Assembly: GCA_022824685.1 (NCBI GenBank)
Contig: JAJDZJ010000042.1
Coordinates: 1 to 32,881 of the forward strand
Source: Caldilineaceae bacterium
GTDB lineage: Bacteria > Chloroflexota > Anaerolineae > Caldilineales > Caldilineaceae
Length of the DNA: 32,881 nt
Reading direction: 5' to 3'
Positions 25,354 through 32,759 of the stretch are shown in pieces. The notes under the pieces are model-generated. The model was not told where the DNA came from. It ran no database searches and was given only the letters and a program-made list of their open reading frames with translations. How positions within the stretch are numbered: the stretch's first letter is position 1; every line of letters starts with the position of its first letter. A program made the position numbers and the translations under genes.

Positions 25354-28185
<2,832 letters not shown>

Positions 28186-28248
28186 GTCGGGGTGGGGGTT
28201 GACGACGTCGCGCCAGGCGGGGAGGCCGCTGGCGGCGGTCGCGGTGAC

Positions 28249-28346
28249 AGGGGCTGCAGCGCGGCGGCGCTGGCTGCGGGCCTGTTCCTCGAAGCGCAGG
28301 GGCTGCAGCGCGGCGGCGCTGGCTGCGGGCCTGTTCCTCGAAGCGC
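28249..28346. repeat. Perfect 49-bp tandem duplication inside the DUF499 gene
   Basis: Two adjacent copies (28249-28297 and 28298-28346) are identical at all 49 positions. The length is one more than a multiple of three, so it shifts the frame. The near-match CTGCAGC[G/C]CCTG (minus strand) at both junctions suggests it arose by slippage or recombination between short repeats. Confidence 0.95.
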
Positions 28347-28789
28347 AGGCGCTGCAGCTCGCTCTTCATCTTTTCGACTTGGGGCGCCTGCTTGGAGGAG
28401 ACGGCGGTCAACAGCCGCTGCGCGGAGTCCAGCATGCGGATTGTATCATCGCCGGTGAATCGCTCCTGGTGGGCCCAGGCGTTGCGGTACTCCCGCAGTT
28501 CGCTCACCAGACTGCGTTCCATGCGGCCGAGCGTCAACGAAAAGACTTCATTCCATGAAACCCACATCACGCGCAGGAGGTCGGTAACATCCATATGATG
28601 GAACGGTCTGTTCGGCTCGGTATGGGAGAAGATGCGTCTCTGGTCATGGGGTCGGTCGAAGATCCGCGCCAGTTCGGTCTTGGCGGCGCCCTTGTGGCGG
28701 GCGACAAACTCGCGCGAAACGTAGGGCGCCAGGCCGGCCTTGAGGAGATCCAGCGCGAGACCGACGCGTTCTCGATTGGTGGGTGCCAT
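28298..28789 (-). CDS. Swt1-type HEPN domain, N-terminal part of the frameshifted DUF499 gene
   Basis: The frame from ATG 28789 reads MAPTNRERVGLALDLLKAGL and continues through MWVSWNEVFS and YRNAWAHQE (the R-x4-H-like HEPN motif), the N-terminal HEPN module usual for Swt1-HEPN/DUF499 proteins. It then has a helical linker (MKSELQRLRFEEQARSQRRR) and hits the duplication; beyond it the frame stays open as meaningless basic sequence to 27002. Removing one 49-bp copy joins it to the ATPase frame. HEPN domains are often RNases; here the activity is inferred. The start lies 13 nt after the DUF3226 stop, so it belongs to that operon. Confidence 0.8.
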
Positions 28790-28802: not shown

Positions 28803-29444
28803 TTATCCCATTTCTGGGTACAGCTCTTTTAGCCAGCTTACAAATGCGGTAGTATTCGCGACTCCTATGGCCAGGTCATTCAGTCCGATAGCCGAACCCA
28901 TCTTACGGGGTTCCTTTCTTGTGGCAAGCCACGCATGAATTTCTGCCCTCAGGACTTTGCCCTGCTTGAACTTGCGATCTCCTTCTGGAATGCTATCGAT
29001 GTAATCTCTCGACAACGGCCATACAGGATCTCTGGATGGAATCATTTTTTCAATAAAGTCTTCAAGCTCCCCAGGCGATTTGTTATCAGGCATCAACCAA
29101 ATGCCGATGCGGCAGTTTCCTTCAATTATCGTCCCAGTAGGTTCAGGTGTTTCCGGCAAGTCGGATTGGTCGAAAAAAGCACTCCCCAATTCTCTCAGCC
29201 TATGCGTTACCGCATTCCATCTAGCATTCAGATCATCGTCTGCGTCCAACACTATTCCTACCACGCTGCGCCCGGGAGCTTTGATTTCTGCTGGGATAGA
29301 TCTGAGAAGCTCCCTATAGTTGTTCTTTTCCCTTATACAGAAGGTCTGCTCCAGGCCCTTGCGTGCACAAATGTGCCTGACTACATGCTTGTCATCTTGC
29401 CCTTCAACAAGAAGAACTTGATTTTGAGAGTCGGAATCTTGCAT
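28803..29444 (-). CDS. DUF3226 TOPRIM-type protein
   Basis: The 213-residue protein has the TOPRIM signature split in the usual way: E14-G15 in LLVEGQDDKHVV and the acidic strand GIVLDADDD (D67, D69-D71), followed by a GIWLMPDN segment as in DUF3226/OLD-like nucleases. It most likely cleaves nucleic acid with Mg2+. It starts 4 nt after the AAA gene stop, with AGGTGA as ribosome site, so the two are one unit. A free-standing TOPRIM protein next to an OLD-like ATPase recalls the AriA/AriB split of PARIS. The AriB family is DUF4435, however, so this would be a distinct pairing. GC is lower than in the metabolic region. Confidence 0.85.
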   Translation of the reverse strand: MQDSDSQNQVLLVEGQDDKHVVRHICARKGLEQTFCIREKNNYRELLRSIPAEIKAPGRSVVGIVLDADDDLNARWNAVTHRLRELGSAFFDQSDLPETPEPTGTIIEGNCRIGIWLMPDNKSPGELEDFIEKMIPSRDPVWPLSRDYIDSIPEGDRKFKQGKVLRAEIHAWLATRKEPRKMGSAIGLNDLAIGVANTTAFVSWLKELYPEMG

Positions 29445-29448
29445 GGCA

Positions 29449-30624
29449 TCACCTGACTTCTATGTTCTGCTCGGCGGCAGTTTGGAGGTCCTCTTCGGTG
29501 TAGCGGACAGCGCGCACTCCTTCATCCCCTTTCTCAAGGCGTACTAGCACTCCTTCTACGTTCTCATCTTCCGTAGCCGCTGTGGCGAAACCCCGCACAC
29601 AGTCCCAGCTATGCGTCGTGGCAAAGACCTGCACGTTGTTTTCGTGGGCAGTTTGCAACACCATGCGCCAGTAGTCTCGCTGCACGCTGTGGTGAATGCC
29701 ATTCTCTGCTTCGTCGATAAGGAGGAATCCGTCGCGGCTGTTGGCGAGCGCCAAAGCAATTCCGAACAGCCGCAGCGCTCCATCGCCTAAGCTTTTCAAC
29801 GGCACAGGGCGAGCGTTACCCTTTAGTCTTACGATGGCCCTTCTACCCCCTCGCATAGACACTGAACTTTCGTCACCGACTACGGCGACTCGCTCCGCTT
29901 CACCGCCGTAAACTAGATTAAGGGCGTGGGTGGCTTGGCCTTCGTCTTCTGTCAAAGCCACTTTGTCCCAGAACCGGGACAACACATAATTATTGATCAG
30001 TCCCGGACCTATCTCCTCACAAGTTGTTGGGGGTGGCAATTTGGACTCATCCCACCGAATCCGATAAGAAAGATCTAGCCCCCGCCGTTTGTCGCCTCCT
30101 ACAACAGTGGAAACACGCTGATCACGAGAAAAAAATGCTGGGACTGTCCAAGTATCACCCTGAAATACCGTTTTCAGAGTATGCGTTCCTCCTTCCAAAA
30201 AGGACTCGGGAAAAAACCTTCCTAGACTATCAAGCTCTTCATCGGAAAGTTCCGATAGGCCAACCGTGTCTATCTTGAGTTGGTCACGATGCTGGCTCGG
30301 CCCTATGAACAATCCACTGGTCTTAGCAGTGTGTCGGCCAAAAAAGAGAGCCCCCCAGTCGGGCTCAAGAATGCTATCACCATCTTCATCCGTGGCGACC
30401 GAAAATTCTTCCCGGCTGGTTAGCAGTGCTCGCAATACAGCATATCTCGCTCGCGTTGCGTAAACTTGAATGGCTTCGAGGACAGTAGTCTTGCCAACGC
30501 CGTTGCGGCCGGCAAGTAGAGTCACGCGCCCCAAACTAGGTATAGATAACCTCTTAATCCCACGGAAATTGTCTATCGACAGATCTGGGAGCAAGAGGGC
30601 GTTCTCGATCTGGTTATTGGTCAT
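29449..30624 (-). CDS. AAA/OLD-like SMC-type ATPase
   Basis: The 391-residue protein is an ABC/SMC-type ATPase of the AAA_15/21 class. It has Walker A GRNGVGKT (39-46), a signature-like LKSLGDGALRLFGIALAL (276-293), Walker B FLLIDEAENGIHH (300-312) with D304-E305, and the switch His in ATTHSWD (H338). It has no TOPRIM of its own; that is supplied by the DUF3226 gene 4 nt downstream. Such ATPases sense phage components and activate the paired nuclease. The ATG at 30624 is preferred over the TTG at 30642 because AAGGAAA precedes it. A 216-nt gap separates it from the MNT gene; I could not place a promoter there with confidence. Confidence 0.88.
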   Translation of the reverse strand: MTNNQIENALLLPDLSIDNFRGIKRLSIPSLGRVTLLAGRNGVGKTTVLEAIQVYATRARYAVLRALLTSREEFSVATDEDGDSILEPDWGALFFGRHTAKTSGLFIGPSQHRDQLKIDTVGLSELSDEELDSLGRFFPESFLEGGTHTLKTVFQGDTWTVPAFFSRDQRVSTVVGGDKRRGLDLSYRIRWDESKLPPPTTCEEIGPGLINNYVLSRFWDKVALTEDEGQATHALNLVYGGEAERVAVVGDESSVSMRGGRRAIVRLKGNARPVPLKSLGDGALRLFGIALALANSRDGFLLIDEAENGIHHSVQRDYWRMVLQTAHENNVQVFATTHSWDCVRGFATAATEDENVEGVLVRLEKGDEGVRAVRYTEEDLQTAAEQNIEVR

Positions 30625-30840
30625 TTTGTCGTTTCCTTTCAATCCCCCACATACTATAGTGGTCGAAAGAGAAGTGATCTCGCATTCCTACTGCCTTGAC
30701 ATCCCTGGCCGTGTGACCACGAGTCATAGGAATCCCCAAACGCCACTCAATCTTAGTTCAGACTATAGACTTTGTCCTATCTTCTCACGATATGTCCAAT
30801 GCCTCTACGTCATATCCCATTTGGTCTTGCCGGTTTGTAG

Positions 30841-31170
30841 TCAAGAGCCTTGTTCCCCTTTTTCGTATACGACCTTCCCCTCGCGCAGCGCAGCGCGGAG
30901 CACGCTGCCGACGAGGTGACCGCGACGCGCGATCTCCTCCGGCGTCGTTACCACGATGTCCTTGCCGACCGGCAGGTCGCTAAGCACGCGGCTTATTTCG
31001 ACTGCGGCGCGGCGTTTGTCGGCCACCTCCTCCATGACGACGAGCAGATCGACGTCGCTCCAGCGGTTGTCCGTGCCGCGCGCCCGCGAACCGAAGAGCA
31101 GAATGCGCGACGGTTCAAAACGGGCGACGATGCGATTTACCATGGTGTCGACAATGGTTTCGGTCGTCAT
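30841..31170 (-). CDS. MNT-type nucleotidyltransferase
   Basis: The 109-residue protein is a minimal nucleotidyltransferase: G27-S28 followed by 10 residues and D39-x-D41 (LLFGSRARGTDNRWSDVDLLVV), the metal and nucleotide site. MntA-type enzymes detoxify HEPN toxins by AMPylation. No separate HEPN gene is adjacent, but the DUF499 gene has an N-terminal HEPN domain. The start overlaps the methylase stop by 4 nt (ATGA), so it is translated with it. It is probably a regulator or antitoxin of the island, which is inference. Confidence 0.88.
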   Translation of the reverse strand: MTTETIVDTMVNRIVARFEPSRILLFGSRARGTDNRWSDVDLLVVMEEVADKRRAAVEISRVLSDLPVGKDIVVTTPEEIARRGHLVGSVLRAALREGKVVYEKGEQGS

Positions 31171-32759
31171 TGCGTCGGTTCAGCCCCGTCGATCAACTCC
31201 GCTTGCGCCACGCGCGGGCGCTCTCGGGCGAGGCGGGCGATCTCCGGCCAGCTTTGTACGAGGGCATTATACCCCAAGGCTTCCTGGGCGCGGTTTTTCT
31301 GTTCGCAGATGCGGTAGAGGCGGTATGCGAGCTCGCGGGCGGGCTCCGCGTCGGCGCGCAGCTTGGCCAGCAGGGCTGCGGCGCCCCCCTCCCCGGCTTG
31401 GTTATGCACGCGGATCAGGTGGTGGACCATCTCCCAGACGGTGCGACGGGTGTCGGTTTCGGGGTCCCAGTCGTCGGGCAGTTCGGCGGGGCGCAGGAGG
31501 CGCACCTTGCCGCCGCCGGCGCTGAGGATGCCGGCCTCGACCATCCCCTCCACACTATTTATCGTGGCTTTGGAGAGCTTTTCGGCCTCTCCAAAGTTCC
31601 CCTCGCTAAAGCCTTCCTGCTCAAACCACGTGATGGCCCAGCGTGTATCGTTGTCAAAGTTTCCCGTCTGCTCAGCGAGCGTCTCGTCCAGCGTCTGGCT
31701 GATGAGTGATAGAGCATCGCGAACCGAGAGCGGTCTGCCTCTGACGTCCATTACATGAGTGTAGCGGCTGAAGATGGAGATACCGGGCCCAATGGATGCC
31801 TGCTTCAGATCCACCGGCGCGATGCTGCCCGCTTGCATGGTACGGACCGCCTCGGGTAACTTTTCAGTGAGCGAATCGACAAACTGTCGGCGTGTTGATA
31901 ACTGGGCATTTGCGGGTCTTGGCCGACACGCCAATACGATGCTTGAAGCGAGTGCGTTGGACCCGATCGCCCTAGGTCTATTGCCCAATTCCGTACGTAT
32001 TGGCCACATGCCAGTGATCTGAAATCCCGTGCGAATTAGCCCTTCCAACATGGTTTCCCAACCAGTTGAAGTCGCACCATCTCTAGTAAATTCTGCCTGC
32101 TTATATGCGTAATAGACCGTCAAGGGATGAGTAGAAAGAGCCGACTCCTTCACGTTGGCGAAGGCTTGGGTCAAACCATTCTCGAAAAAGTCCCTCGCTC
32201 TTGATTTGCTACCTTCGAAACGGTGGGGAGTTGCCACCAGTTCCTCAACTCTGGGTACTGCCAACGTGGAAAAATTTTCCGGGAAGACGCCCTTCAGCGA
32301 GCGACGTAGCCAGACATAGAAAAAATCCGAGAGATCGGCGTACGGAACGTTGTCGTAGTATGGTGGATCAGTAGAAGCCATACAGTCTTTGCGGACGACT
32401 TGGGTTGCGGCATCTGCTTGGTAAGCCTCACCGCAAGGTCGTGCTGGCATAGTCTTTACCGATTTCCATACCCAGTCAACCATCGCCAAAAAATTGCCGG
32501 ATGAACTGCAGAAGGGATTGCATTCTGCGAAGTCCCAAAACATTTGGATCGCTTGACGACTAAACGTATTACGGATTTTCTCGCCAGATTTGTGCCAACT
32601 GCATATCGACGACCAGTAGTCAGCAACCTTATCTACTACGAACGCCAAGTAAACGCCTACAGCTTCGGCGTAGGCAGTGGACCCAGTTCCACCATCCCGC
32701 AAGGGAACCCCGTCATCCGCAATTCCAGCGACCACCGAGTCTGCACAGGGCGATTGCAT
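31167..32759 (-). pseudogene. DUF1156 DNA methylase, N-terminally truncated at the contig repeat
   Basis: The 530 residues match the C-terminal half of COG1743/DUF1156 adenine-specific methylases, normally about 900-1000 long. GTGSTAYAEAVGVYLAFVVDK, QAIQMFWDFAECNPF and the catalytic motif IV DPPYYDNVPYADLSDFFYVW are present. Missing are the N-terminal WWARRP-type segment and the AdoMet-binding loop. The first four to five codons lie in the inverted-repeat arm, and a TAG directly precedes the ATG, so the gene is cut where the repeat starts. Either the repeat inserted into the gene or the contig joins wrongly here. It is coupled to the MNT gene by an ATGA overlap. As it stands it cannot methylate DNA. 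Confidence 0.8.

Follow-up and report, generated by a model that had tools for sequence, protein, structure and literature searches.

A pair of adjacent genes in a draft genome (5.2 Mb) of a Caldilineaceae bacterium (GCA_022824685.1), encoding an ATPase and a stand-alone TOPRIM protein of the family DUF3226, was analysed for family membership, predicted structure and distribution. The window, meaning the whole stretch of DNA studied, is contig JAJDZJ010000042.1 (C44) in full, with a length of 32,881 nt; judged by this locus, the closest named relatives are Caldilineaceae metagenome bins. We read the pair, with a probability of about 0.7, as an autonomous defence module of the split OLD type, made up of two genes and inserted as cargo in the slot between HmaB and HmaC of an HMA restriction-like locus. 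The two genes form an operon, are found together almost obligatorily and have diverged together; the ATPase motifs are intact, the slot is variable in content, and the pair also exists without HMA. On profile matches, the pair is a member of PDC-M38, an uncharacterised phage defence candidate listed in PADLOC.

Both open reading frames (ORFs) drawn by the first-pass annotation, which took them for the two halves of an OLD nuclease, are present on the minus strand (Table 1), with 4 nt between the ATPase stop codon (TGA) and the ATG of the TOPRIM gene. The longest ATPase ORF (29449-30642, 397 aa) begins at an alternative TTG start at 30642. Around the pair, promoter-like sites numbered 2 vs 1.6 in shuffled sequences and terminator-like sites 5 vs 2.5, the latter a weak excess. 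The ATPase matched the Pfam families AAA_15 (E=2.1e-19) and AAA_21 (E=2.2e-17) above the cut-off, and its best PADLOC model was PDC-M38A (2.4e-83, full-length), followed by AbiLi (6.4e-47) and AriA (1.2e-21). The TOPRIM protein matched DUF3226 in Pfam (E=1.2e-52) and, again over its full length, PDC-M38B as best PADLOC model (2.2e-42), and gave no match in an NCBIfam scan. M38A and M38B are thus adjacent here, PDC-M38 and the window pair are alike embedded in a known defence locus, and no essential difference was seen; what the window contributes is that the pair lies next to a minimal nucleotidyltransferase (MNT) in an HMA slot. The PDC class was discovered by guilt-by-embedding, and candidates embedded in HMA have been reported (PMC12988326); our literature search found no text on PDC-M38. 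The pair, suggested earlier as a possible uncharacterised anti-phage module, is not new as a candidate, being PADLOC PDC-M38A/B; TOPRIM-linked OLD-ABC pairs recruited to DUF499 loci are described in PMC12839542.

For the ATPase, 'AAA' is a Pfam label only; fold prediction gives an ABC ATPase head of the SMC/Rad50 type. The AlphaFold2 model was built from an alignment of 74 sequences, i.e. the window and 73 of the 80 loci described below (six partial or missing ATPases and L046 were omitted), with a mean predicted local distance difference test score (pLDDT) of 89.1. It was superposed on SMC/Rad50 heads with Z up to 17.9 (root-mean-square deviation (rmsd) 3.6, 270 aligned), on GajA with Z 16.9 (rmsd 4.1, 258 aligned), on PtuA with Z 16.8 (rmsd 3.8, 273 aligned) and on the AriA-type chain 8v46_B with Z 15.9 (rmsd 3.6, 258 aligned). 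Walker A lies at about G39-T47, a signature-like motif at S278-L-G-D-G282, Walker B at D304/E305 with E307, the H-loop at H338, and the C-terminus reads E389-x-R391. K45 of Walker A, D304/E305 and H338 were unchanged in all 74 aligned ATPases. The C-terminal E-x-R was found directly before the TOPRIM gene in 78/78 loci (EVR in 70), and it is possibly a docking tail.

The TOPRIM model (mean pLDDT 95.0) was built from 76 sequences, the window and 75 of the 80 loci; L052, L092 and L115 (in-frame stop), L124 (stop beyond the gene end) and L046 (near-duplicate of L045) were omitted. Its best fold match was PH0156 (2p62; Z 12.0, rmsd 3.6, 185 aligned), a protein whose DUF3226 identity is unconfirmed by sequence, followed by the C-terminal region of Burkholderia pseudomallei OLD (BpOLD; Z 11.2, rmsd 4.8, 167 aligned), full-length Thermus scotoductus OLD (TsOLD; Z 10.4, rmsd 3.1, 131 aligned), retron Eco2 (Z 8.5, rmsd 4.4, 176 aligned) and GajA (Z 7.4, rmsd 4.2, 155 aligned). 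The PARIS nuclease chains came lower (8ux9_A, Z 6.7, rmsd 5.5, 167 aligned; 8v46_D, Z 6.7, rmsd 5.2, 165 aligned), both taken as AriB from their length and fold. A Foldseek search with the model gave nothing below E=0.001, the best match being an OLD protein at 1.3e-3. As PDB sequence searches with the protein or its profile returned chance-like matches only, the structural placement rests on the model.

On this modelled OLD-like fold, a putative two-metal catalytic set is formed by E14, D18, D67, D69, E126, E128 and R166. Across the 76 sequences, E14 and D67 were invariant, D18 was found in 74 (Glu in the other 2), E126 in 61, E128 in 75 (Asp in 1) and Lys or Arg at 166 in 75, and position 69 was Asp in 26 and Asn in 50. 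In BpOLD, the metal ligands are E400, D455 and D457 for metal A and E404, T506 and E508 for metal B, joined by K562 (PMC6755086). By motif order and spacing, without residue-level superposition, E14, D18, D67, D/N69, E126, E128 and K/R166 would correspond to E400, E404, D455, D457, T506, E508 and K562.

The co-occurrence of the two families was assessed by tblastn and HMM/ORF scans. A scan of genome contigs gave 432 TOPRIM relatives, of which the best 80 (L045-L124) were kept. An ATPase match lay beside the TOPRIM gene in 79 of them (tblastn); in the exception, L116, the contig extends just 115 nt upstream, and in L115 the ATPase is reduced to a 47-residue fragment. Where the ATPase C-terminus could be placed (78 loci), gene spacing was 20 nt or less in 74, and none of the 78 pairs was fused. 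A second draw, in which 61 relatives and 400 genomes from the phylum were searched for DUF3226, gave 69 distinct places including the window; 60 were examined, eight weak or duplicate ones being left out, and at least seven contigs are common to both draws. A profile-matched ATPase was directly upstream in 56 of the 60 (HMM); among the remaining four, L184 has a Walker-A ATPase, and the contig extends only 5, 205 and 10 nt upstream in the other three. The weakest places (L180, L184 and L181) had marginal DUF3226 matches and look nearer to DUF4276/HEC-01. Conversely, 21 of 22 ATPase places (E<=1e-30, 61 genomes) adjoin a DUF3226 place, so the neighbourhood on which the first-pass annotation had staked its proposal was found from both sides. 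The distance matrices of the two proteins correlate (r=0.80, 71 loci), with 0 of 2000 permutations as high, and omega values of 0.16-0.84 in the tested pairs indicate net purifying constraint. The pairing far exceeds chance and is nearly obligate. Titles of the 80 loci name Chloroflexota, Gemmatimonadetes, Latescibacteria, Nitrospirales, Acidobacteria, Proteobacteria, Spirochaetaceae, Rhodothermales/Bacteroidetes, Acidimicrobiia, Lentisphaerae and Verrucomicrobia; with identities of 36-60%, this wide spread is as expected for a transferred unit.

As had been noted at first pass, the pair is inserted in a methylase/DUF499 locus, being flanked by HmaB and HmaC. The slot was compared across 11 close HmaC places (E<1e-280) among the 61 relatives, and the pair was found between HmaB and HmaC in five (G000, the genome of the window, G001, G004, G006 and G010) and was absent from the slot in six. 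The slots without it contained about 150 nt (G018), MNT and HEPN genes (G046), an AAA/DUF3696 protein and a HEC-03A protein (G027), a DUF1828 protein and others (G015), a 146-aa protein (G043), or a VapBC-like pair, so labelled from sizes and sequence without a family scan (G019). In loci L045, L046 and L131 the slot holds MNT, its HEPN partner and the pair, and in G004 the pair alone. The G+C content of the pair (48-53%) lies below that of HmaB (56%) and that of HmaC, the HEPN part and MNT (61-66%). Because slot contents vary and the G+C content of the pair is insert-like, the HmaB-HmaC slot receives cargo, and the pair is one such cargo.

The pair also exists without HMA, being found on ColRNAI plasmids on which no HMA gene is annotated; it is not bound to the DUF499 locus in which the first-pass annotation saw it. 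The TOPRIM protein matched 134 plasmid records, 124 of them from Klebsiella. The 4167-bp ColRNAI plasmid NZ_CP076014.1 has four annotated genes in all, which encode a helix-turn-helix (HTH) protein, Rop, the ATPase and the DUF3226 protein, and on small E. coli and Citrobacter plasmids (L211, L212) the pair is accompanied, apart from replication control, by one to four other annotated genes. Klebsiella, E. coli and Citrobacter all have tiny ColRNAI/ColE10 plasmids on which the pair is the main or almost sole cargo. The Klebsiella pair DNA matched 144 plasmid records (110 with >=80% in one place), and among the matches listed 50 of 60 records were 5 kb or less; it was present in 9 of 5426 E. coli genomes, on plasmids every time. 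Compared with the window pair, the Klebsiella proteins are identical at 37/196 and 73/322 positions. Their TOPRIM protein retains E14, D18, D67, D69, E128 and a Lys at 166, E126 not being retained, and their ATPase retains the ATPase motifs and the C-terminal E-x-R. A broad single search of the literature found nothing on small Klebsiella plasmids with the pair as cargo. In an Acinetobacter plasmid (L213) the ATPase is split, and in Plesiomonas the pair sits after phage tail genes.

Genes next to the pair are given as tallies, without a random-locus control and hence without a defence-island fraction. The nearest upstream genes in 75 loci included mad3-type (7), mad8 (5), mad2 (4), HmaB (4), DrmMI (2) and IIG methylase (2), along with UvrA (5) and unrelated metabolic genes; since mad3 is itself an ATPase family, its matches mark fold kinship as much as context. 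Downstream (77 loci), HmaC (3), HmaB (2), type I methylases (2) and major facilitator superfamily (MFS) transporters (5) were among the nearest.

The likeness to PARIS drawn by the first-pass annotation concerns the architecture, a two-gene cassette of an OLD-type ABC ATPase and a separate TOPRIM nuclease (PMC9122126, PMC12409363), and at that level it stands. It does not extend to membership, which was rejected: the ATPase has the AAA_15/AAA_21 matches of AriA, but the TOPRIM families differ, DUF3226 here and DUF4435 in PARIS, with no match of the TOPRIM protein to PF14491 (DUF4435) in Pfam or AriB in PADLOC at E<=0.1. Against the DUF4435 profile, a 68-column N-terminal match was obtained with a probability of 61%. 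PARIS is triggered by an anti-restriction protein (Ocr) and cleaves tRNA. Furthermore, the modelled TOPRIM fold resembles OLD (Z 11.2) more closely than AriB (Z 6.7), the ATPase scores far lower to AriA than to M38A, and no fusion was found in 78 DUF3226 pairs, whereas PARIS is sometimes fused.

AbiL shares the two-gene architecture, and the window ATPase matches one AbiLi model (PDLC02336) including the C-terminus, as does the Klebsiella plasmid ATPase at 1e-58 for AbiLi. The partner differs, in that the TOPRIM protein matched neither the AbiLii model nor the RloB family (hhalign probability of 0.3% against the RloB profile), and RloB-linked ATPases match another AbiLi model than the window ATPase does. 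RloB proteins do match AbiLii, so that model works, and with the RloB partner missing AbiL membership was rejected. With OLD and GajA, the pair shares an ABC ATPase head (Walker A/B, signature and H-loop, fold Z 16-18) and a TOPRIM domain with a putative two-metal residue set, which bears out the earlier view of two OLD halves. It differs in being two polypeptides where OLD classes 1-3 have a single chain, in the Asp at the TOPRIM +4 position (Glu in OLD), in the DxN of most relatives and, with respect to GajA, in that no UvrD-like GajB gene is among the window neighbours. Published HMA/DUF499 'BR' loci contain HEPN-fused DUF499, MNT-HEPN and TOPRIM-linked OLD-ABC back-ups, such back-up modules are known from BREX loci too, and OLD-ABC together with a nuclease is reported from at least 1242 taxa in all (PMC12839542). 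The window pair is the same kind of association; DUF3226 is not named in the text of that paper.

By analogy, the best reading is that the pair works like PARIS or AbiL without being a member of either, most likely by way of an ATPase that acts as sensor and holds back or gates a TOPRIM nuclease of the two-metal type; the models for this are PARIS (PMC12409363) and the AbiL/TOPRIM_OLD toxins neutralised by AAA proteins (PMC10440598). For genuine AAA-TOPRIM pairs, AF2 is reported to predict interfaces poorly (PMC10440598). The ATPase would form an oligomeric ABC sensor or scaffold which binds and restrains the TOPRIM protein; a phage product, such as an anti-restriction protein, or a nucleic-acid state made by infection may alter the ATPase; the TOPRIM protein, freed or activated, would cleave nucleic acid (tRNA/RNA or DNA), and this cleavage would arrest the infected cell. 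Inside the HMA locus, the pair might serve as a back-up once the first barrier is overcome. The anatomy of the pair supports this model, within which we infer the trigger, the substrate and the defensive role.

The pair might instead belong to HMA functionally, as the TOPRIM effector arm of its DUF499/methylase machinery, and not be a separate system. It fits tightly between HmaB and HmaC on the same strand, and TOPRIM and other nucleases are described as compensatory in DUF499 loci (PMC12839542), but the six pair-less slots and the many contexts without HMA, including plasmids of about 4.2 kb, make this very improbable. A primary role as a toxin-antitoxin, plasmid-maintenance or anti-plasmid module, with phage defence secondary and the ATPase restraining a TOPRIM toxin, fits the small ColRNAI plasmids of which the pair is almost the sole cargo, and toxicity assays in which AAA proteins neutralise stand-alone TOPRIM_OLD toxins (PMC10440598). 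We consider such a role unlikely, as chromosomal copies lie partly in restriction or defence loci (HMA, MADS, type I and IIG neighbours) and PARIS is non-toxic after deletion of either gene (PMC9122126); the order ATPase-TOPRIM does not discriminate between the two. Compatible with the defence module is the question of whether the TOPRIM protein is a DNA nuclease acting on phage or plasmid DNA, as in OLD/Gabija, or an RNase/tRNase, as in AriB and retron Eco2. Among characterised proteins of solved structure, the closest in fold are the C-terminal regions of OLD, which nick and cleave DNA (PMC6755086), but retron Eco2 (Z 8.5), an RNase, has the pair E374/D378 (PMC12405507), and E14/D18 has that E..+4 D spacing where OLD has Glu at +4. 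With the fold leaning to OLD and the spacing matching the Eco2 RNase, the substrate is not settled by fold, and a DNA nuclease is a real possibility at somewhat less than even odds.

Several observations weigh against the pair being an OLD-type defence module. Asn stands at TOPRIM position 69 in 50 of 76 relatives vs Asp in OLD, and position 126 differs from the Thr of BpOLD, for which reasons we only infer catalysis by the TOPRIM protein. The ATPase of G014 has no adjoining TOPRIM gene, and three of the 80 loci (L052, L092 and L115) have in-frame stops in theirs. In other genomes the pair has many housekeeping genes as neighbours, so it does not lie in a defence context everywhere. Among 50,697 phage records no homologue was found, and the literature search found no experiment on any DUF3226 pair and no paper naming DUF3226.

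The minus-strand order in the window is HmaB, MNT, ATPase, TOPRIM and the two parts of HmaC, HEPN_Swt1 first and then DUF499 (Table 1), after which cytochrome-oxidase assembly genes follow; MNT overlaps the end of HmaB by 4 nt. The host HMA locus is represented by an HmaC split over two frames, the C-terminal half of HmaB and, on contig C191, an intact HmaA near the contig end. In relative L045, HEPN_Swt1 (E=4.3e-32) and DUF499 lie in a single 1121-aa ORF. The two HmaC parts in the window are separated by the 49-nt duplication, whose unit is not a multiple of 3, and the frame break is either a real frameshift or an assembly error. HmaB homology ends at 32741-32744; the ~140 nt that follow, up to the contig end, are unlike HmaB in any frame, and the N-terminal ~442 residues were not found in the genome; the 5' truncation near the contig edge is probably an assembly gap, with a real truncation as the alternative. 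MNT is accompanied by HEPN in L045, L046, L131 and L186, whereas the window has MNT only, the HEPN gene being missing (30625-30841). The genome of the window (G000) holds further stand-alone TOPRIM genes: a DUF4276/HEC-01-like pair (L180, contig C243), a DUF4435 (AriB-type) pair (L197, C227) and, where another contig begins, an RloB gene (L204, C170).

Table 1. Features of the pair and of the surrounding HMA locus in the window.
Feature	Position	Strand	Basis
M38A-type OLD/ABC ATPase, 391 aa	29449..30624	-	Pfam, PADLOC, structure model
M38B-type stand-alone TOPRIM (DUF3226), 213 aa, ATG start	28803..29444	-	Pfam, PADLOC, structure model
HmaC, DUF499 ATPase, 943 aa, downstream part of host HMA locus	25354..28185	-	HmaC model, 1067.9 bits
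HEPN_Swt1 N-terminal part of HmaC, frame differs from DUF499 part	28356..28789	-	comparison with L045
Tandem duplication of 49 nt, 2.3 copies, 98% match	28248..28358	unassigned	
MNT minimal nucleotidyltransferase, MntA/PDC-S09-like	30841..31170	-	family scans
HmaB, DUF1156-type adenine methylase, C-terminal half only	31167..32759	-	profile 449-963 of 967

PDC-M38 was already catalogued in PADLOC, and TOPRIM-linked OLD ATPases in DUF499 loci are in print (PMC12839542). This analysis adds counts for the near-obligate pairing, a putative OLD-like catalytic set in DUF3226, a comparison of slots, and plasmids on which the pair occurs without HMA. Further, and at close to even odds, DUF3226 may be a distinct free-standing class of OLD TOPRIM and the pair a complete, portable anti-phage/anti-element immune system; such a system would cross phyla as a unit, protect restriction loci from anti-restriction and supply the hidden function of small cryptic ColRNAI plasmids in clinical Klebsiella. 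If so, plasmids otherwise annotated with only Rop and an HTH protein would gain a function, and the plasmid version is a compact two-gene test object of <1.8 kb. If the pair defends, it would be a further separable OLD ATPase-TOPRIM pairing beside AriA-AriB, AbiLi-RloB and the DUF4276/HEC-01-type pairs; one OLD ATPase design would then be used with interchangeable TOPRIM nucleases, and one could examine directly which of the two parts determines the trigger and which determines the target.

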